DNA of 27,142 bases from a virus. The position numbers and the translations under genes are program-made. Location of the stretch: IMG/VR virus record IMGVR_UViG_3300044957_000558, positions 1 through 27,142 of that record; one strand, 5' to 3'. The notes beneath the pieces are model-generated. The model did no database searches and was not told where the DNA came from. It saw nothing but the letters and a program-made list of their open reading frames with translations. Positions 2,942 through 27,086 of the stretch are shown in pieces. Positions within the stretch are counted from its first letter, which is position 1, and the number at the start of each line of letters is the position of its first letter.

Positions 2942-3667
2942 TTAATCCAAATAATCAGATAATCTTTTCATTAAGTCAAGAGAAGCGTTTCCACTATGTC
3001 CAACATTTAATTCAACCTTTCTCTTGTTTTCTTCATCTAAGTTTTCTTCGAATTGAGGTTTATCTTCTTTATTTAAAAATAAATAAGCCCCTGGTGTTGA
3101 TGGAGATGAAACCAAGTCAAAACAAATTAATTCAAAGTCCTCTTGAACTTCATTTTGCTCACCAACTTTTTTAATAGAACCAACTCCACGAGAAGAAATT
3201 CCTAATGTAACACCTTGACGAAGATAGTTAGCGGCTAAATCACCTTTAGTGGAGACAATACCTCTTTCGTGAAAACCAGGACTTGTTAAAAGTTTTAGTT
3301 TTCCTAATAGTACAGGACCCTCCCACCATATATCAGTAATTACATGTGATACACGATCAAGATCTATAAGTGAAGACTCAGGGTGATTTAACTCAGAAAG
3401 AGCCGTTCCCTTTTGAATCATTTTTTTATAGTTCTCAGCTTCTCTTTTTAATATCTTTTCTGGATAGATTCTTCCGTTTCTATTTGGGGTATTATACTTT
3501 TGAAGTACTGCATAAAACTCAAATGGTTTAGAATGATCTGACATATCGCGATTTTCTCTAATCATTGATAAGTTTCTTCTTTCATTTGGGTCTATATATC
3601 CCGAATCATATTCCACAAGAATCCCTTTACCCGTATCTCTTGGGCCTAATATTTTTAAATCGTTCAT
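2942..3667 (-). CDS. 21: Prohead core protease, T4 gp21-like (peptidase S77/U9 type)
   Basis: This 241-residue protein (T4 gp21 is 212) carries the expected serine protease landmarks. These are PNRNGRIYPEKIL at about residues 61-73, ELNHPESS with the probable catalytic His95, and LGISSRGVGSI with the probable catalytic serine at 158/159. The segment VSHVITDIWWEGPVLLGKLKLL between them is typical of the family. The enzyme is encapsidated in the prohead core, cleaves capsid, core and internal proteins after (I/L)-x-E, and finally degrades itself. It sits one gene from the portal-side genes and immediately before the scaffold, as in T4. A TATTTATA element precedes the ATG, so it may be the first gene of a short unit with the 70-residue gene. 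Confidence 0.9.
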   Translation of the reverse strand: MNDLKILGPRDTGKGILVEYDSGYIDPNERRNLSMIRENRDMSDHSKPFEFYAVLQKYNTPNRNGRIYPEKILKREAENYKKMIQKGTALSELNHPESSLIDLDRVSHVITDIWWEGPVLLGKLKLLTSPGFHERGIVSTKGDLAANYLRQGVTLGISSRGVGSIKKVGEQNEVQEDFELICFDLVSSPSTPGAYLFLNKEDKPQFEENLDEENKRKVELNVGHSGNASLDLMKRLSDYLD

Positions 3668-3680
3668 TTAATATTTTATT

Positions 3681-3690
3681 TATAAATACT
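3681..3690 (-). promoter_or_regulatory. Putative late promoter element of the prohead protease
   Basis: The minus strand reads AGTATTTATA about 14 bases upstream of the protease ATG. It is one of the recurrent TATTTAT-core elements. Confidence 0.5.
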
Positions 3691-4156
3691 AAATAGCTTC
3701 AATTTCTTTCTTTACCGGTTTTAGATTTCCGTTTTTAGTTAAGTAAAATTTAAAGTATTTGTTTTTATTCAACACATCTCCGTATATATCTTTTACAAGA
3801 TTTTTTACAACTTTTTTTAATTTTGGTGACTTGAAATCCATGTGTTCTTTTAAATATAAATTTGCTTCTATATTCATAAATGATTTCTTTTTTAATTGAA
3901 GGCCGCTTGTTCTAAGATCTAAATCAACAATAAATTTATCATCAAAAATCTCTTTGTTTATGTTTTCATATACAGAATGTTTAACTGATCTTGTCATGTT
4001 GAAAACAACTCTGTCCCAATTTTCAATCTCATCTTTTGGTTCTACCCATGTTTGAATGTTTATATAAATTGATTTGAGGTTTTGTGAATCAATGGTTCCA
4101 TATTGTGATTTAAATGTCCTAAATCCATTGATTTTGCTTGTTTTACCCTTTTTCAT
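3689..4156 (-). CDS. Hypothetical protein in the gp67/gp68 position
   Basis: This 155-residue basic protein lies between portal and protease genes. In T4 that place holds the small prohead core proteins gp67 and gp68. It has no recognisable catalytic motif, no membrane segment and no low-complexity tract. The first 40 residues are Lys/Ser-rich; the rest looks like a compact alpha/beta domain with alternating hydrophobic strands (KFIVDLDLRTSGLQLKK, FMNIEANLYL). The start at MKKGKTSK is the only ATG near the frame's beginning. I do not recognise the family; core or neck function is inferred from position only. Confidence 0.6.
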   Translation of the reverse strand: MKKGKTSKINGFRTFKSQYGTIDSQNLKSIYINIQTWVEPKDEIENWDRVVFNMTRSVKHSVYENINKEIFDDKFIVDLDLRTSGLQLKKKSFMNIEANLYLKEHMDFKSPKLKKVVKNLVKDIYGDVLNKNKYFKFYLTKNGNLKPVKKEIEAI

Positions 4157-4198: not shown

Positions 4199-4216
4199 TG
4201 AAATATTTATATTTAT
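4199..4216 (+). promoter_or_regulatory. Putative late promoter element of rpsU
   Basis: On the plus strand two overlapping TATTTATA-like cores (ATATTTATATTTATATAA) end about 20 bases before the bS21 ATG. Unlike the other copies, this one points rightward, matching the orientation of the gene it precedes. Confidence 0.5.
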
Positions 4217-4236
4217 ATAAACAAAGTTAAAAATTT

Positions 4237-4422
4237 ATGTTAATAGTAGAAGTAAAAAAAGGTAATATTGAAAAAGCGTTAAAAGATTTAAAAAGTAAGG
4301 TAATCAAGACTAAACAAAGTAAAATTTTGTTTGAGAACCAAGAGTTTGAAAAAGACTCCGTTAAAAAAAGAAAAGTTATTCAAAAAGCAACTCATATGCA
4401 AAAACTCAGAAATAACGATTAA
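4237..4422 (+). CDS. rpsU: Ribosomal protein bS21, phage-encoded
   Basis: This 61-residue protein reads as a small-subunit ribosomal protein bS21. It begins MLIVEVKKG, followed by N-I-x-K-A-L-K-D-L-K, a lysine-rich helical centre and a C-terminal KKRKVIQKATHMQKLRNND. Bacteroidota bS21 proteins have the same opening (MLI-x-V-K-x-G) and length. bS21 binds the 30S platform near the 3' end of 16S rRNA. In Flavobacterium it helps sequester the anti-Shine-Dalgarno sequence, so a phage copy could change which mRNAs are initiated. The gene is on the strand opposite to the surrounding head genes, with its own upstream TATTTATA element, and its last four bases overlap the end of the converging 238-residue gene. 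No Shine-Dalgarno sequence precedes its ATG; the leader is A-rich. Confidence 0.88.
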   Translation: MLIVEVKKGNIEKALKDLKSKVIKTKQSKILFENQEFEKDSVKKRKVIQKATHMQKLRNND

Positions 4423-5135
4423 ATTCCCTCTGAAAGATTCTTTAATTTAAAATAGTTGATCTCATTGAAAGATTCCGTGGTTATTTTTTTTACCACTTGG
4501 TCTATTGTTTGCTTTGTTTCATCATCACTTTCAGATAATTTATCCTCAAGTTTTACTAAAACTTCTTCTTTAAGTTTATTGTAGGATTCTATCAATGCTG
4601 ACTTTGGTACAGATAAAATCTTCATAACTTCTTTTTTTTCTGATTCATTCAAAGATGATATAAACGATTTTACGATTTTGTTTGCAACACTCAACATAGA
4701 ATTTAATGGTACATTTATAGTTTCTCTATTTTCTACAATAACACTTTTTTGTAAATTTTCAGAAATAAGTTTTTTACTCTTAATTTTTTCTTCTAAAGTT
4801 AATAGTCCTGTTGAAAACAAGTTGTCAATATTTTTGTACTCATTCTCAGACTTAATGTGACCTACCCACATGTTCAGTTCTGAAAAAGTTTTATATGGAA
4901 TTTTATTTATAATATTTTCATAAATGGTGATAGATTGATTTATATATTCGTTAGCAACTTCTTCATTTAAACCTTTTTTTGATGATAATTCATCATATAA
5001 GTAAAATAGTTTTGACACTTTTTTATTTTTTAAAACCATTTCACTAAAAACAAATAAATCTTTTTTAACTGAGTTTTTAGAATAAGATTCTGTTAAACAT
5101 TTTTCTATCTTAGATTTTAATTCACCGAATTTCAT
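4419..5135 (-). CDS. Hypothetical helical protein next to the portal gene
   Basis: This 238-residue, Lys/Glu/Ser-rich and almost wholly helical protein has long stretches that could form coiled coils (KSKIEKCLTESYSKNSVKK, EKKEVMKILSVPKSALIESY). It follows the portal gene by about 36 bases. Its 3' end overlaps the converging bS21 gene by four bases. The position corresponds to T4 gp67/gp68, small helical core proteins of the prohead, and the composition would suit such a role. I see no sequence motif that proves it. A TATTTAT element lies about 18 bases upstream of the ATG. Confidence 0.6.
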   Translation of the reverse strand: MKFGELKSKIEKCLTESYSKNSVKKDLFVFSEMVLKNKKVSKLFYLYDELSSKKGLNEEVANEYINQSITIYENIINKIPYKTFSELNMWVGHIKSENEYKNIDNLFSTGLLTLEEKIKSKKLISENLQKSVIVENRETINVPLNSMLSVANKIVKSFISSLNESEKKEVMKILSVPKSALIESYNKLKEEVLVKLEDKLSESDDETKQTIDQVVKKITTESFNEINYFKLKNLSEGI

Positions 5136-5171: not shown

Positions 5172-6977
5172 TTAGTCACAAAGAAGTTCAGATAATCTAT
5201 CATCTAAAGCACCAAAAGACTGAGAACTCTTATTAAAATCCCAATATTCATCATCATCTTTTGATTCTGTGAGTATTTTTAAATTTTTGTTAACAACACT
5301 TTCAGGTATTGTTAGTTCTGAACCACCTGCCGGTTTTGGAGGTGGTGGAGGTCCTCCTCCTGCCATCGGTGGTGCTCCCGCTCCTCCTTCTTCACCTTCA
5401 GCCGGAGAGGTTTCAGTTGATCCTGTTACGATACCATATAATTTATCTACTTGGTCAAATAATCCCGTATGAGTTATAATAGTTGCGGTATTATCTAACT
5501 CAGCAGAAACAGCTCTTTCCATTCTTATTTGTTGCACATCAAGTTTAATTTCTTCATCTGAGAAACCAAAAATATGTTTTTTGGCCCAAGTTGCTGATGT
5601 TGCTGGAATTGATTTTGGAACTTCAGCAACTAAATCTTTATATAATAAAACTTTTTCTTTCCAAACATCAATCATTAATAGATCCGCTTGTTTAGATGGA
5701 TTTGTTAACTGAAGAGTAAAGTTTTCTAACTCATCTTCAAACCCCATCAAAAATAAATGGATAATTGCAATTTTATTTAATTCGGCAATTACTGATTTTT
5801 GTATTTTATTAATAGTCCTCGCAAATCTAATATCAAGTAATGATAGATTTTTTCCGTCACCAACAGGTTCCTCAAAACCTAAATATGCCTTAGGGATTCT
5901 AAGTGCCGTTACAAGTTTCTTTTGAATGTATTCAATATCGGCGATTTCAGATAGATTCGAACCACCAGGAAGTGTTGTGATTGGATCAGGGGCCGCTTGG
6001 TCACGAACAGGAACAAAATAATCTTGGTCAACCGCCATTTGATTAAATCTTAAATCGACATTTCCTGTTTTGTTATCAACAACTTGATCTCTTTTAAATT
6101 TATTGGCAACTCTTTGTACATAAGCCTCAACATCTTTGTCATCCATGTTACCAACATAAACTTTAAATATTCTTCTTTCAGGCGCTCGTGAAGTTCTATA
6201 TATTAACATCGCGTCTTCTGCCAACACTAATTGTTTCCAAATCCTACGTGCTTTTTCTAACATAGAGGTTCCATAAGGAAGTTTTCTATCATCACCTAAC
6301 AATCTAAAGTGGGCGACCTCCCAAGTATTAAATTCTGTGTTTTTCTCCTTCCAAGTAAATTTTAGTGACTTTTGTTTAATGTTAGGAACCGCAGAAAAGG
6401 TTCTTGTTTCCATACCCCTTTCAACTCTTTCAATTTCAATATTTGGTAATTGCAAACATCCAATAACACCTTTTTCATCACTTAATTTTAAGTAAACAAA
6501 ATTATCACCATACTTACACATGTTTCTTATCCACATTGGTAAATTGGTGTTTATATCCAACTTATTGATGAATAAATCAACTAAGATAGATTTAATTCTT
6601 TTTGATTCAGAATAAACTTGTAAAACATAACCATCTTGATTTGGCGTTGTAGATTCTTCGCCGTATATATCCAGTGCTGTTGATATCTCTGGAGTGTATT
6701 CCATCGATTCGTAATCATAAAATGCCGCCAATCGTGTTGGTTCATAATATACCGCCTGAGTATATAAGTTATTTTCAATTTTACCCCACTGATTACTTAA
6801 ATATAATGATTGTTGTTGTTGAAGTTTTTCTTTTTCAAACTGAGATTTGTCTTGAGTTTTTAAAAGTTCCTGCTTATCTAACTTGTAAGTTGGTTGACCC
6901 ATACCCAACGTTGAGTTCGGACCAAAAGTTTGTGTTAACCTCTGCCATACCGTTAGATTTTTATTACTATTTTCCAT
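5172..6977 (-). CDS. 20: Portal protein, T4 gp20-like
   Basis: This 601-residue protein (T4 gp20 is 524) forms the dodecameric portal vertex through which DNA is packaged and to which the neck and tail attach. It has the T4 portal layout: an N-terminal region with LAAFYDYESMEYTPEISTALDIY, the clip and stem segment rich in aromatic and basic residues, VAHFRLLGDDRKLPYGTSML, and the long helical crown region with DIEYIQKKLVTALRIPKAYLGFEE. The C-terminus has an unusual Gly/Pro-rich linker (about residues 530-555, EGGAGAPPMAGGGPPPPPK) followed by a short acidic tail. It lies between the terminase and the protease, as in T4, but without the tail sheath and tube genes that T4 places between gp17 and gp20. 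Confidence 0.92.
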   Translation of the reverse strand: MENSNKNLTVWQRLTQTFGPNSTLGMGQPTYKLDKQELLKTQDKSQFEKEKLQQQQSLYLSNQWGKIENNLYTQAVYYEPTRLAAFYDYESMEYTPEISTALDIYGEESTTPNQDGYVLQVYSESKRIKSILVDLFINKLDINTNLPMWIRNMCKYGDNFVYLKLSDEKGVIGCLQLPNIEIERVERGMETRTFSAVPNIKQKSLKFTWKEKNTEFNTWEVAHFRLLGDDRKLPYGTSMLEKARRIWKQLVLAEDAMLIYRTSRAPERRIFKVYVGNMDDKDVEAYVQRVANKFKRDQVVDNKTGNVDLRFNQMAVDQDYFVPVRDQAAPDPITTLPGGSNLSEIADIEYIQKKLVTALRIPKAYLGFEEPVGDGKNLSLLDIRFARTINKIQKSVIAELNKIAIIHLFLMGFEDELENFTLQLTNPSKQADLLMIDVWKEKVLLYKDLVAEVPKSIPATSATWAKKHIFGFSDEEIKLDVQQIRMERAVSAELDNTATIITHTGLFDQVDKLYGIVTGSTETSPAEGEEGGAGAPPMAGGGPPPPPKPAGGSELTIPESVVNKNLKILTESKDDDEYWDFNKSSQSFGALDDRLSELLCD

Positions 6978-7421: not shown

Positions 7422-9194
7422 TTATCTTTTAGTTCCAAATAACCAAGAATATTTCATATAATCATCTCTATTGGGCCCACTATTCGCCCTATATCTGTCA
7501 TTGGCCATATTTGTGTTTGGAATCGTAGGATCAAAATACATTTGTTTTGCAACATTTTCATTAGAAGCCACCGCCCAAGACTCGATCATAACTTTAGTGT
7601 GTTCGGTTGCCTTTTCTAATTTAGAGAAAGATGATTCACCAACGTAAATGGCCATTGATATACCCATTATTAAGTCATCATGTTGTCCTTTTTGGTGATC
7701 AGGTCTTCCGTTAATATAAACAAAAGTATTCATTTCATTATATAAACGAACACTTTTTATTTTAAACTTATGTCTTACTGACTCTTCAAATGACGCAATT
7801 ATTTGAACTCTTTTATTATTAAAGTTTATACCAGGAATTTTATCAACAGCCTTTGGGTTATATGACCATATATTTGTAGTATCGACACCATCAATATACA
7901 TGTTTTTATAACCAAGTTCTTGCATTTTTCGAACCGTTGTAATCCCCATACCACCAGTTATATCGACAACAACAAACGCACTATACATCATACCCCACTT
8001 ATAAGCAACCTCAGCTAAAGTGTCAGGTGGAATTTTACCGACATATTCTAATACTTGTTCTCTTTCATCAAAATCAATAATTTGAATGGACGAAAAGTCT
8101 TCACTATCTCCACGAGATACGTCAACCCCCATGATGTATTTATGACCTTCAATTGGTTCTTTCCATATCCACAAGGCATTTCCCATTAATTTAGATGGGG
8201 GGTCCAAAATAGTATTATTTTTAATATCTTCAAGTTGTTTGTTATCAAAAACATTATCTCCTGACCCAAGAAATTCACAATTTAACTCCTGATTAATTTT
8301 TCTTTTGTCGTATTTGAGTTTTTTAACCATTTTTTCATACCACGATGAACATGGTTTATAACCTTGATTAAAAAACATTTGCAATTCCTGATAATCCCTT
8401 TCATATGGATCAACATGTTCGAAAGAAATATTTTTTGACACGTCAAATTCTTCTTTATTCAAAAGGTAATGTATAAGATCATCGGTGGGAACTAAATAAA
8501 GATCTTTTGCATATCTTGGGTCTCGATACCAATACATTTCGGAGATCTTGAAATTATTCATCCCCTTTAACGATTGATCGTATATTTCATAATAAATTTG
8601 GTCGTGTCCGTTGGGGGTTGATACCACTATTACCTTACCACCCGTGGATAAGGATGCCATACAAGCTGCCCAAAAATCACTATCGGCTTCAATAAACGCC
8701 GCCTCATCGAATACAAGAATAGTTGGGGTAAATCCACGAAGGGCGTCTTTTGATGTAGCAACCGCCTTCACTTCAGATCCATTATTTAATTTATAATGTC
8801 GTTGTGAATTTTTTTCGGCAGCAAATCCCGCACCAACCCAAGAAGGCCATTGATCAATAAAGGATCGAATTTTATTTGCCATTTCTTGTGAGGTATCCAA
8901 TTTGTTGGCAATTATAAGTATTTTTTCGGGTTTATTTTTCTTAGCAAATACCAATCTTTTGGATATCCAAGCTGCGGTTACAGTAGATACACCGGCTTGT
9001 CGATATTTTAATGCAATATTTTCTTCATAATCTTCATAATCTTGAAGTAGTAAAATTTGGTCGGGAAATAGTTCTAATGGAACATATTTTGAAACCGTAT
9101 TGTCGTAAGTTTGTAAATAGGTTCTAAGAGCATAAGGAGTATCTGACATACATCTAGCATACTCAATTAATACTTGTTCTTTGGACAGAGCCAT
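7422..9194 (-). CDS. 17: Terminase large subunit, T4 gp17-like
   Basis: This 590-residue protein (T4 gp17 is 610) is the DNA-packaging motor with ATPase and nuclease domains. ATPase landmarks are YRQAGVST at residues 64-71, a degenerate Walker A lacking the usual GK-T lysine (as in many phage terminases with R-Q-x-G-x-S-T). Walker B is ILVFDEAAF with D163/E164, and the coupling motif is STPNG at 192-196. RNase-H-fold nuclease landmarks are IMGVDVSRGD with D358, VVVDITGG with D411 and the late acidic pair HDDLIMG with D506/D507. All expected acidic residues are present, so it looks functional. It cuts the DNA concatemer and pumps it into the prohead through the portal encoded two genes downstream. 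Confidence 0.95.
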   Translation of the reverse strand: MALSKEQVLIEYARCMSDTPYALRTYLQTYDNTVSKYVPLELFPDQILLLQDYEDYEENIALKYRQAGVSTVTAAWISKRLVFAKKNKPEKILIIANKLDTSQEMANKIRSFIDQWPSWVGAGFAAEKNSQRHYKLNNGSEVKAVATSKDALRGFTPTILVFDEAAFIEADSDFWAACMASLSTGGKVIVVSTPNGHDQIYYEIYDQSLKGMNNFKISEMYWYRDPRYAKDLYLVPTDDLIHYLLNKEEFDVSKNISFEHVDPYERDYQELQMFFNQGYKPCSSWYEKMVKKLKYDKRKINQELNCEFLGSGDNVFDNKQLEDIKNNTILDPPSKLMGNALWIWKEPIEGHKYIMGVDVSRGDSEDFSSIQIIDFDEREQVLEYVGKIPPDTLAEVAYKWGMMYSAFVVVDITGGMGITTVRKMQELGYKNMYIDGVDTTNIWSYNPKAVDKIPGINFNNKRVQIIASFEESVRHKFKIKSVRLYNEMNTFVYINGRPDHQKGQHDDLIMGISMAIYVGESSFSKLEKATEHTKVMIESWAVASNENVAKQMYFDPTIPNTNMANDRYRANSGPNRDDYMKYSWLFGTKR

Positions 9195-13423: not shown

Positions 13424-15448
13424 ATGTTAGAATTCGTAGATGGTGATGATAAAGGAAAAAAGAAGTCTGATGGTCAGACTACTGTATTAGACAATTTTAG
13501 TAAAGACCTTAATAAATTAGCCGAAGAAGGTAAGTTAGATCCTGTTATTGGGCGAAAAAAAGAAATTATTAGAATTGCCCAAATTCTCTCAAGAAGGAAG
13601 AAAAATAACCCAATAATCATTGGTGAACCTGGTGCAGGAAAAACTGCAATTGTTGAGGGTTTAGCAATGATGATACATAATGGTGAATGCCCTAAAAACT
13701 TGATGGATAAAAGAATTTTAGATTTAGATATTAATTCTTTAGTTGCTGGTACCAAATATCGAGGTCAATTCGAGGAACGAATGAAAGTTATTATTGAGGA
13801 ATTACAAACTAATCCGAATATAATTATTTTTATCGATGAAATTCATACTATGGTGGGTGCTGGTAATAGTTCAGGTTCTTTAGACGCATCCAACATTTTA
13901 AAACCCGCACTTTCTCGAGGTGAAATTCAGTGTATTGGAGCGACAACATTAGATGAGTATAGAAAAAGTTTTGAAAAAGATGGGGCATTAGAAAGAAGAT
14001 TTCAAAAAATAATTGTAGACCCTTCTTCAAAAGAAGAAACTTTAGAAATATTAAAATTAAGTAAGTCAAAATACGAAGAGCACCACAAAGTAACTTATGA
14101 TGACAATACCTTAAAGTTATTTGTTGAATTAGCAGATCGTTACGTCACGGATAGAGAGTTTCCTGATAAAGCATTTGATATATTAGATGAGGTTGGGTCA
14201 AGAATGCAAATTGATATTAAACTTCCTGATGAAATTGAAGATTTAAAAACTCAGGCTTCTGATATTAGAAAAGAAAAAATGGAAGTCATAAAAAAACAGA
14301 AATACGAATTAGCTGCCGAGTTAAGAGACAAAGAGCGGTTGATTTTAGGTAAACTTGAGGAAGAAAAAAAGAAATTCGAGGAGTTTTTAAAAAGTAGTAA
14401 AAGACCCATACCGGAAGATTTGGTTTATGAAGTGGTATCAAATATGACAAAAATTCCTGTGTCAAAAATCAATGTAGATGAAAAAGCAGCATTGATTAAT
14501 TTGGCCGAAAATTTGAATTCTAAAGTCATCGGTCAAGAAGATGCCGTAATTAAAATAGCAAAATCAATAAGAAGAAATAGAATTGGAATTAAAGACCCCA
14601 ATAAACCAATCGGATCATTTATCTTTTTAGGGTCTACAGGTGTTGGTAAAACTTTTTTGGCAAAACAATTAGCAAAAGTGATTTTTGGTAGTGAAGATAG
14701 TTTAATTAGAGTTGATATGAGTGAATATCAAGAAAAACATACAATTTCAAGACTAATAGGTTCTCCTCCAGGATATGTAGGTCATGAGGAAGGTGGTCAA
14801 TTAACTGAACAAGTGAAAAACAAACCATATTCGGTGATTCTTTTTGATGAAATCGAAAAGGCTCATAAGGATATTTTTTCAACACTTCTTCAAATGTTAG
14901 ATGACGGACATGTAACCGATGCTTTAGCTAGAAAAATTAATTTCAAAAATTGTTTAATCATTATGACTTCTAATATTGGAGTTAAGAAATTTCAAGATTT
15001 TGGAACTGGTGTTGGATTTAAAACAAATTCAAGTTCTGCAGTCGCAGAAGAACAAAAAAGAGATGTTTTGAAAAAAGAATTAAGTAAGTTTTTCGCACCT
15101 GAGTTTTTAAATCGAGTTGATGATGTAGTCATTTTTAATTCTTTATTAAAAGAGCATATTGACAAAATTACTAAGCTTGAAATTGAGATTTTGTTAAAAC
15201 GTGTCAAATCTAAAAACTATCATTTTACATATGGTGATGAAGTAGTTGATCTAATATCTAAAGTTGGTTTTGATGAAACATATGGTGCAAGACCAATTAA
15301 AAGAGCGATCCAAGAAAAAATTGAGGACTATATCTCTGAAAAAATTCTTATGGATGAAATTGTTGAGGGTAATACATATAATTTAATTGTTGAGGGTGAA
15401 AATATTTTAATAGAAAACCCCAAAAGAAGAATAAAAAAGAAAGAATAA
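13424..15448 (+). CDS. ClpC-like AAA+ unfoldase lacking the N-terminal domain
   Basis: This 674-residue protein has two AAA+ modules. D1 has Walker A GEPGAGKT (67-74), pore loop KYRG (111-114), Walker B IIFIDEIH (134-141) and arginine fingers near R191/R192. D2 has Walker A GSTGVGKT (403-410), pore loop GYVG (450-453), Walker B VILFDEIEKAH (471-481) and sensor TSNIG (515-519). Between them a UVR-type stretch, YELAAELRDKERL (about 294-306), marks ClpC rather than ClpA/ClpB, and there is no long ClpB middle domain. A GVGF loop at 529-532 matches the ClpP-docking loop. The roughly 150-residue adaptor-binding N-domain of host ClpC is missing; D1 begins about residue 20. It probably feeds substrates into host ClpP with altered specificity. 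The peptidase gene follows 47 bases later. Confidence 0.9.
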   Translation: MLEFVDGDDKGKKKSDGQTTVLDNFSKDLNKLAEEGKLDPVIGRKKEIIRIAQILSRRKKNNPIIIGEPGAGKTAIVEGLAMMIHNGECPKNLMDKRILDLDINSLVAGTKYRGQFEERMKVIIEELQTNPNIIIFIDEIHTMVGAGNSSGSLDASNILKPALSRGEIQCIGATTLDEYRKSFEKDGALERRFQKIIVDPSSKEETLEILKLSKSKYEEHHKVTYDDNTLKLFVELADRYVTDREFPDKAFDILDEVGSRMQIDIKLPDEIEDLKTQASDIRKEKMEVIKKQKYELAAELRDKERLILGKLEEEKKKFEEFLKSSKRPIPEDLVYEVVSNMTKIPVSKINVDEKAALINLAENLNSKVIGQEDAVIKIAKSIRRNRIGIKDPNKPIGSFIFLGSTGVGKTFLAKQLAKVIFGSEDSLIRVDMSEYQEKHTISRLIGSPPGYVGHEEGGQLTEQVKNKPYSVILFDEIEKAHKDIFSTLLQMLDDGHVTDALARKINFKNCLIIMTSNIGVKKFQDFGTGVGFKTNSSSAVAEEQKRDVLKKELSKFFAPEFLNRVDDVVIFNSLLKEHIDKITKLEIEILLKRVKSKNYHFTYGDEVVDLISKVGFDETYGARPIKRAIQEKIEDYISEKILMDEIVEGNTYNLIVEGENILIENPKRRIKKKE

Positions 15449-15495: not shown

Positions 15496-16515
15496 ATGGA
15501 TCTAAATAAATTTAAAGAACTATTATCCATACCTTCGAAAACTTATCAAGAAGATAAGATGGTCGAATTTTTGACTAATTATCTAACCACAGAAGGATAT
15601 GACTGGTATCGTGATTATCACAACAATATATACGTGACTAAAGGAACATTGGATGAAGGTGAATTTTACCCAATGTTTATTTCTCATACCGACACGGTTC
15701 ATAATATTGTAGATAAGATTGTTGTAAAAGAAGAACTTTTGGTTCGTCTATACACATTCGGAAAAGACTTTGGTTCAAATCAAGTTGATTGTTTAAAAGC
15801 ATATACTCCTGATGGAAAACCTACTGGCATTGGTGGAGATGATAAATGTGGTATTTTCATCTGTTTAGAATTACTTAAACAATTAAATAAAGTAAAAGTT
15901 GCATTTTTTGTTTCAGAAGAAACTGGATGTCATGGATCAAGAAACTTGGATAAGGACTTTTTAAAAGATGTTGGATATTGCACCCAATATGATGCCCCTG
16001 GTGATCACTTGATTTCTTATAGTTGTTCAGGAACGGTATTGTTTGATAAGAATGGTGAGTTTTTTCCATTGGCGTTACAAGCTATCTCAGAGGGGTTCAA
16101 AAATGAAATGATGGTTCAATCTCACCCTTACACCGATATTATGATGGTTAAACAATATAGTGATATTTCTTGTATCAATATGTCATGTGGTTATTATAAC
16201 ATGCACACGTCAAATGAGTTTGTTTGTATTTCTGATGTTGAAAGGGCAATTATTGCAGGAAAAAACATGGTTGATAAATTGGGTTTAAAAAAATACGAAT
16301 TCAAAGAGGAAATTAGACCTCAGCCAAGCATTTTTGATTTCCAAGATGATAAACCTTTTTATGATGAAGTTCATCAATTATCTACAGTTGATATAATAGA
16401 AGAAAAAAATGGTATTATAATTTGTGATTTTTATGATGAAAACCAACTTTATATTGACGATGAAGATGGATATAAATTATATGAGATACTAAAATACCGT
16501 TATTCTTTAGATTAG
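15496..16515 (+). CDS. M20-family metallopeptidase, PepT-like aminopeptidase
   Basis: This 339-residue protein has the di-zinc ligand set of M20 peptidases. The residues are H64 and D66 in FISHTDTVH, D115/D116 in GIGGDDKCG, the catalytic E141 and bridging E142 in SEETGCHGS, D166 in QYDAPGD and H237 in NMHTSNE. The pattern resembles PepT (tripeptide aminopeptidase, about 410 residues). The protein is shorter, so the lid or dimerisation domain seems reduced. It would hydrolyse short peptides in the cytoplasm. It lies directly after the ClpC-like gene and on the same strand, suggesting that peptides released by Clp proteolysis are turned into free amino acids for phage protein synthesis. Other M20 substrates (acylated amino acids) cannot be excluded. 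Confidence 0.82.
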   Translation: MDLNKFKELLSIPSKTYQEDKMVEFLTNYLTTEGYDWYRDYHNNIYVTKGTLDEGEFYPMFISHTDTVHNIVDKIVVKEELLVRLYTFGKDFGSNQVDCLKAYTPDGKPTGIGGDDKCGIFICLELLKQLNKVKVAFFVSEETGCHGSRNLDKDFLKDVGYCTQYDAPGDHLISYSCSGTVLFDKNGEFFPLALQAISEGFKNEMMVQSHPYTDIMMVKQYSDISCINMSCGYYNMHTSNEFVCISDVERAIIAGKNMVDKLGLKKYEFKEEIRPQPSIFDFQDDKPFYDEVHQLSTVDIIEEKNGIIICDFYDENQLYIDDEDGYKLYEILKYRYSLD

Positions 16516-18233: not shown

Positions 18234-19143
18234 AATATTTTACCGGTGGGTCCATTAAAAAGAAACGCTGAGATTACACGTTTTTGTGAGAACCTTTAGA
18301 GTGATTATTGTTTCTACTCTTATCCACTTTCTTTTGGAAAGTATTTCTCATTGCCGATTGGTTAGACCAATCACTCCTTGACGATATAACTACTCTCCTA
18401 TTACTTAACTCTCTTTGAGGATGCCTCCCCAACTCGTCCTTGCAGGATTAGAGGTTTTTGGTAGAAATACACTCGGTCTTGGGAACCTAATGTGCCACGG
18501 ACAATCCGTGACTAAGTGGGCAACTTCCGTTATACCGTGACAGACACTTTTCCTTATTTTATTAATACAATAGTCATAAGTTTGTGTCGTGGATTATCGA
18601 AGTAGTGGTCTGCCAACCGAGCCAACCCATATTTTGAACGAGTCGATACTCAACTACTCCATGAAATGTCCCCATTTCCATACTTCAAGATTACTTCGAG
18701 ACTAACCCCTTGGTAGAAGTTCGTCAAGGTTAATAACGGCACCACCCGTTTTTTAACATACCTTTCGGTTTTAAATAACCTTTGATATTGGAACACGCAA
18801 TAATGAAATTGGATAATTTCATGTTTCGCAAATATTCCTACGGGTTATTCCTATTGGTGTTCCCACCTCAATTTGACGACCCACATCGCCAAATCATCTA
18901 ATCACGTTCCCTACAGCGTTGCCCTCGGTAGTAAAGATTAAACGGTATCCCGCTTGTATACTCGAGCTCCAAAAAGAAGCCGCAAATCATCTAACACAAA
19001 TGACTCACTTTATCCTACTTTCGTAGTTTATTTTAATGGACTATATACGGCCCAATATCTTAATCAATCAAAGATGGAAATTTCATTCCAATTACTTGTC
19101 AAAGAATCTGACAAAACTTATCTTGAACGGATAATCTATTTTT

Positions 19144-25087: not shown

Positions 25088-25291
25088 TTATTTAATTTGA
25101 AGTTGGTTCTTTGTTTCATTAATCTGTTTAATCTCACAAGTTTTTCCGAAAGGAAATCCTCCTTGTGATTCGTGACCTTGTGGTATTTTCTTGTAATAAT
25201 TTCCGTCAGTATTTGATAGTTCTAACCATTTTACCATTTTAGGGTTAAGTACTTCACCACATCGTTCACATCTTATAGTTTCTTTTTTCAT
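25088..25291 (-). CDS. Small zinc-ribbon-like protein
   Basis: This 67-residue protein starts with a CxxC knuckle (IRCERCGEVLNPK) and has a third Cys at GKTCEIK. It has an acidic-aromatic centre (WLELSNTDGNYYKKIPQGHE). A single CxxC with one further Cys (and His40) could bind zinc, but a complete four-Cys ribbon is not present. It is the first gene after a host-type promoter. Small zinc proteins at such sites often act on host transcription or nucleases; here that is only a guess. Confidence 0.6.
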   Translation of the reverse strand: MKKETIRCERCGEVLNPKMVKWLELSNTDGNYYKKIPQGHESQGGFPFGKTCEIKQINETKNQLQIK

Positions 25292-26612: not shown

Positions 26613-27023
26613 TTAACCTTGATTTAAAATATATTCTCTGATTGTATCTGGTGATGCTTCACCAATTGAACAAGCAAAATAACCATCAGACCAAAAAGTT
26701 TTTTCTAACCAAAATTCTTGACTTAAAACATCAGAATACAAAGACCAAATTTGTTTTGTTGATTCTTGTTTTAATTTACGAACAATTGATGAAACCGACA
26801 AACGAGGAATATATCTAATTAAAAAATGAATGTGATTAATATCTGATTCCATAACCTCAATATTAAAATCTGAATTGTTCGTAATATTTTCCAATATGGT
26901 TTTCATATCTTCATTTAAATTACCCATAAGTAAAGGTTTACGATATTTACAAACAAATATTAAATGAATTTTTAAATAATGTTTTGAACGATTTGTTGTA
27001 ATGTAATTTGATTTTTTTGACAT
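26613..27023 (-). CDS. tnpA: IS200/IS605-type Y1 transposase TnpA (REP-associated or IS200-like)
   Basis: This 136-residue protein has the HUH motif as HIH (H64-I-H66 in DINHIHFLIRYIP) and the catalytic tyrosine Y131 in TIREYILNQG. The N-terminal strand SKHYLKIHLIFVCKYRKPLL is typical. TnpA nicks and joins single-stranded DNA at hairpin ends, forming a transient 5'-phosphotyrosine. Length fits the family (130-155). I chose ATG 27023 because the longer frame to 27062 would need a TTG start and a leader unlike the family. No TnpB follows, so it is an IS200-type lone transposase. Imperfect ACAGAAT/ATTCTGT repeats lie upstream near 27056-27086 and may belong to the element's end. Confidence 0.88.
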   Translation of the reverse strand: MSKKSNYITTNRSKHYLKIHLIFVCKYRKPLLMGNLNEDMKTILENITNNSDFNIEVMESDINHIHFLIRYIPRLSVSSIVRKLKQESTKQIWSLYSDVLSQEFWLEKTFWSDGYFACSIGEASPDTIREYILNQG

Positions 27024-27055
27024 AGTAAAGAATTTTTGTAAATATGTTTTCACAG

Positions 27056-27086
27056 AATACAAACATTTTACAAAAATTCTGTCTTT
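27056..27086. repeat. Inverted repeat upstream of tnpA, possible IS end hairpin
   Basis: ACAGAAT and ATTCTGT flank a 17-base AT-rich loop about 35 bases upstream of the TnpA start. Subterminal hairpins of this kind are recognised by Y1 transposases. The true element ends are not defined here. Confidence 0.4.

Follow-up and report, generated by a model that had tools for sequence, protein, structure and literature searches.

The small protein bS21 is described as the ribosomal protein that phages carry most often (PMC9976891). A bS21 gene lying among phage head genes, on the strand opposite to them, raises the question of what a phage could gain from its own copy. We addressed this question in the IMG/VR virus record IMGVR_UViG_3300044957_000558, analysing positions 1-27,142, the whole 27,142-base stretch (hereafter the window).

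A bS21 gene is reversed within the head-gene cluster

The window has a GC content of 31%, and we infer that it belongs to a lake-type phage of Bacteroidota. The clues to its host are the presence of Flavobacterium johnsoniae among the closest solved bS21 proteins, a DUF4494 gene, and a terminase large subunit (TerL) that, among named phages, is nearest to that of Flavobacterium phage immuto. The region around bS21 contains the following features.

2942-3667, - strand: prohead protease of the T4 gp21 type (Peptidase_S77)
3689-4156, - strand: conserved 155-aa gene at the T4 gp67/gp68 position, divergent from bS21
4204-4211 and 4210-4217, + strand: two overlapping copies of TATTTATA, predicted late-type promoter motif
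4218-4236, + strand: A-rich bS21 leader without a Shine-Dalgarno (SD) site
4237-4422, + strand: phage bS21, 61 aa, matching Ribosomal_S21 (PF01165)
4419-5135, - strand: conserved 238-aa gene, convergent with bS21, with a 4-nt stop codon overlap
5172-6977, - strand: portal protein of the T4 gp20 type
7422-9194, - strand: terminase large subunit

An earlier note on this DNA had described a 61-residue bS21 reversed between portal-side and protease-side genes, and the open reading frame, the PF01165 match and the strands of the neighbours all agree with this description. The gene runs opposite to the portal, the protease, the scaffold and its immediate neighbours, and sits between the genes at the gp67/68 position. 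On its divergent side lie the 155-aa gene and then the Peptidase_S77 protease; on its convergent side lie the 238-aa gene and then the T4-type portal and the terminase. The intergenic region shared with the 155-aa gene is 80 nt in the window and 73-104 nt in relatives, and that gene adjoins bS21 in all loci extending that far. The tail-to-tail overlap with the 238-aa gene, 4-18 nt long, was present in 34/34 distinct loci.

A search of IMG/VR with the bS21 protein yielded 80 loci, and in 80/80 the gene order was the same and bS21 ran opposite to every detected neighbour. Because these loci had been chosen for bS21, we drew a second set with the terminase (72-93% identity) and counted the contigs holding both portal and protease. 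bS21 occupied the same reversed site in 50/50 of them, and we found no empty site, that is, no relative without bS21, among terminase relatives down to 72% identity. The immuto clade consists of T4-like Flavobacterium phages with terminases 26-32% identical; bS21 was present in 0/34 of its loci with portal and protease, and a search of the complete immuto record for the bS21 family gave no match.

Elsewhere in the window we observed the following.

13424-15448, + strand: ClpA/ClpB-type ATPase (phrog_4871), among the few rightward genes besides bS21; a Clp protease is also listed in bS21 phages by Chen et al. 2022 (PMC9723584)
17720-18127, + strand: divergent tmRNA beside GOLLD (RF00023, 97.8 bits), which ARAGORN does not report
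18265-18661, - strand: full-length match to GOLLD (RF02032, 298 bits), one of the large, ornate non-coding RNAs, here in a bS21 phage
26613-27062, - strand: IS200-type Y1 transposase (PF01797, 115.7 bits), close to the right end of the contig

The phage protein retains the aromatic residue of host bS21

The bS21 product matched PF01165 over residues 4-51 with a score of 33.8 bits (curated cut-off 27). It has two solved relatives, one of which is F. johnsoniae bS21 (PDB 7jil). dN/dS was 0.03-0.18 in eight pairs, indicating purifying selection. We then compared bS21 residues and leaders in 34 distinct close relatives and in 45 distinct members of the wider, overlapping terminase-sampled set. The residue comparison with host bS21 that the earlier note had suggested revealed that the aromatic residue hiding the anti-SD sequence is retained: His53 of the window is the counterpart of F. 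johnsoniae Tyr54, and position 54 was aromatic in all phage copies (32 Tyr and 2 His in the 34 distinct; 41 Tyr, 3 His and 1 Phe in the 45 distinct). Stacking by His at this position may be weaker than by Tyr. The N-terminal helix differs from that of the host, with I24 and Q28 in 34/34 and V23 and E5 in 33/34, and one residue is missing in phage bS21 just before this helix. Because of this divergence and the absent residue, ribosome binding could be altered. Overall, the analysis supports the window gene as a genuine bS21 of the Bacteroidota type.

A putative phage-type promoter precedes bS21

The TATTTATA pair ends 19 bases upstream of the bS21 ATG in the sense orientation. Across the window, sense TATTTAT preceded 13 of 28 genes (shuffled mean 1.8, maximum 6 in 500 shuffles), mostly as GATATTTAT or ATATTTAT located 11-42 bases upstream of the start, whereas reverse ATAAATA was at chance level (5 vs 3.4). 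Sense TATTTAT was also found in 59/103 leaders of relatives (5.6 shuffled) and in 9/30 leaders of immuto (0.8 shuffled). As a control, T4 gave its known TATAAATA instead (9/29 vs 0.28). TATTTAT was present in 4% of Flavobacterium host leaders, and the Bacteroidota-type TAnnTTTG was present in 20% of these compared with 2-7% in phages. Because the sense motif is enriched in phages, its reverse is at chance and few host leaders carry it, we take the rightward element pointed out in the earlier note to be real and phage-type, and probably a late promoter. The leader counts identify TATTTATA before bS21 as a late-type promoter motif of the phage group, and not a chance match.

In the close relatives, TATTTATA lay 24-33 nt before bS21 in 25/34 distinct loci. 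In the wider set the exact TATTTATA preceded bS21 in only 10/45, the remaining leaders having related ATATATC-type or different AT-rich sequences. As the main reading, we rejected TATTTATA as a leftward promoter of the T4 TATAAATA type for the divergent gene, since sense TATTTAT, not ATAAATA, was enriched in the window, the relatives and immuto. The element is almost a palindrome and might therefore also serve the 155-aa gene leftward; bidirectional use is possible as well. No paper on TATTTATA as a late phage promoter was found in the paper library that we searched.

The sense TATTTATA late-type promoter motif appears to be common to T4-like Bacteroidota phages with and without bS21, and T4 has TATAAATA. 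Unlike the late genes, an M20/M42-type peptidase gene (15496-16515, + strand) and a small gene (25088-25291, - strand) carry a host-type TATCTTTG box.

Phage and host genes alike are poor in Shine-Dalgarno sites

SD strength was computed as the pairing energy of each leader with the 16S tail, and leaders at or below -6 kcal/mol were counted as SD-bearing. Mean pairing was -1.7 kcal/mol for window genes (shuffled -1.1) and -1.42 kcal/mol for immuto late genes (shuffled -1.27), whereas the T4 control gave -5.9 kcal/mol (shuffled -3.2). With pairing near the shuffled level, unlike that of T4, the phage late genes are without SD sites, as had been claimed. The earlier note had further suggested that this property steers ribosomes to phage late mRNAs. 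In larger sets, leaders at or below -6 kcal/mol accounted for 12% of the total in the immuto clade, for 6-7% in bS21 phages and for 4.4% in a Flavobacterium genome. Because host genes and the bS21-free immuto clade are likewise SD-poor, the lack of SD sites cannot ground a switch to phage mRNA. The ribosome-remodelling mechanism put forward earlier therefore keeps its bS21, its predicted late-type promoter, its SD-less genes and its aromatic residue, and loses preference through SD-lessness.

We also sought a phage-specific leader signature in base profiles and found none that was clear, phage and host leaders both being A-rich. A lower frequency of A at -3 and -12 had been a candidate signature; it largely vanished in larger, filtered sets and was therefore probably a start-calling or sampling effect.

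The phage bS21 gene looks blind to host feedback

In Bacteroidota, a known SD-based feedback sets the level of bS21. The host bS21 gene, rpsU, is autoregulated through an extended SD that allows its translation by ribosomes free of bS21 (McNutt et al. 2023, PMC9976891). When bS21 or its C-terminus is missing, ribosomes prefer rpsU and translate SD-less mRNA poorly (PMC9976891). We found an extended SD before rpsU in 80/80 Flavobacterium-type loci (mean -19.7 kcal/mol, for example GAGAGGAGGTGTC) and Tyr54 in 80/80 of the products; most of these loci come from closely related Flavobacterium and are not independent of one another, and the host of the window phage is itself inferred. The best pairing of the window bS21 leader with the 16S tail was -0.9 kcal/mol, compared with pairing stronger than about -13 kcal/mol for an extended SD. 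No phage bS21 leader reached -6 kcal/mol, either in the close relatives (0/34 distinct, mean +0.6) or in the wider set (0/45 distinct, mean -0.3, strongest -5.1). Because the rpsU loop uses the extended SD and the phage gene is without one, the phage gene would stand outside the autoregulatory loop and looks blind to host feedback.

We propose that a late, feedback-blind bS21 occupies the 30S subunits of the host and shields their anti-SD, a model drawn from sequence comparison for which we judge the case to be evenly balanced. The phage paralogue would be made late from its own phage-type late promoter and would most likely enter host 30S subunits, replacing host bS21 or in addition to it, with aromatic residue 54 keeping the anti-SD hidden. 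Because its gene has no SD, synthesis should not drop as ribosomes fill with bS21, and this escape from feedback could allow the protein to accumulate unchecked and saturate the 30S pool. Removal of bS21-free ribosomes would turn off translation of host rpsU. The predicted outcome is a 30S pool that is dominated by phage bS21 and fully competent for SD-less late mRNAs, which might benefit phage mRNA. The bS21 family match, purifying selection, retention in 80/80 and 50/50 loci, the sense promoter motif, the SD contrast with host rpsU and the aromatic residue 54 favour this model, as do the published late co-expression of bS21 (PMC9723584), the published behaviour of ribosomes lacking bS21 (PMC9976891) and the entry of a Pelagibacter phage bS21 into E. 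coli ribosomes cited by Chen et al. (PMC9723584); the diverged N-terminal helix, His54 and the restriction of TATTTATA before bS21 to closer relatives weaken it. More tentatively, the phage might turn the host autoregulatory loop on host bS21, such that host synthesis stops and takeover needs no protease; we consider this possible, if doubtful. McNutt et al. proposed the opposite use, in which the loop lets the host strike back at a phage that removes host bS21 (PMC9976891).

The phage could instead simply replenish a loosely bound, late-assembling protein after host transcription stops, with no selectivity and with SD loss meaning only a lack of need. bS21 is the last protein to assemble and can dissociate, and ribosomes missing its C-terminus perform poorly on SD-less mRNA (PMC9976891); retention of the aromatic residue at 54 is also in line with replenishment. 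It does not predict, however, that the phage N-terminus should diverge so consistently from that of the host protein, and we regard replenishment as unlikely. That divergence, a phage helix consistently unlike the host's as Chen et al. reported, speaks for the hypothesis of those authors (Chen et al. 2022, PMC9723584), in which altered contacts of the N-terminal helix make ribosomes prefer phage late over host mRNAs; the version in the earlier note was SD-based. A further point in its favour is that bS21 is expressed late, together with the structural genes (Chen et al. 2022, PMC9723584). Phage and host leaders are nevertheless alike in SD-lessness and A-richness, and T4-like Flavobacterium phages manage without bS21, so that such selectivity seems to us less probable again than replenishment. 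An extraribosomal or virion role, for instance as a head-packaged protein or an RNA-binding regulator, would suit the fixed place at the gp67/gp68 site among prohead genes, and packaging was raised by Chen et al. 2022 (PMC9723584), but the phage protein preserves residues conserved in bS21, aromatic 54 among them, and we consider this role highly improbable.

For the model that we prefer, a late bS21 blind to host feedback, the contrast between an SD-controlled host gene and an SD-free phage gene offers a simple, testable account of how host bS21 could be displaced by the phage version. The same contrast weighs against the idea that phage mRNAs are selected through their lack of SD sites.

Comparison with known systems

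Neither the arrangement of bS21 nor the idea of ribosome substitution is new, both having been published in 2022. In that year, Chen et al. (ISME Commun 2:31, PMC9723584) described the same gene order, strand reversal and late transcription with structural genes, noted Tyr54 or His54 and a diverged N-terminus, and hypothesized that phage bS21 redirects ribosomes to phage late mRNA. As in their Bacteroidetes phages, bS21 in the window lies in a TerL-portal-protease cluster, running against the two conserved hypothetical genes that flank it, is of the Bacteroidetes type with one of the two residues Tyr and His at 54 (His in the window), and is accompanied by a GC content of about 31% and a Clp-type ATPase. 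The window is another contig, and late expression is here predicted from the promoter motif. Their article also cites the entry of a Pelagibacter phage bS21 into E. coli ribosomes (PMC9723584). Its main text does not mention the promoter motif or SD loss, and our additions are modest: a phage bS21 that appears to be without the host feedback signal, and a probable phage-type late promoter motif.

Relative to Flavobacterium host rpsU, the phage gene encodes the same protein family with the same aromatic residue sequestering the 16S tail; an extended SD precedes rpsU in the host (80/80), whereas the phage gene is SD-free and has a putative phage-type promoter. The cluster resembles the T4 (NC_000866) late genes 20-67-68-21 in its order of portal, two small head genes and protease. 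In contrast, T4 has no bS21 there and uses TATAAATA together with SD sites, whereas this phage group appears to use TATTTATA with no SD.
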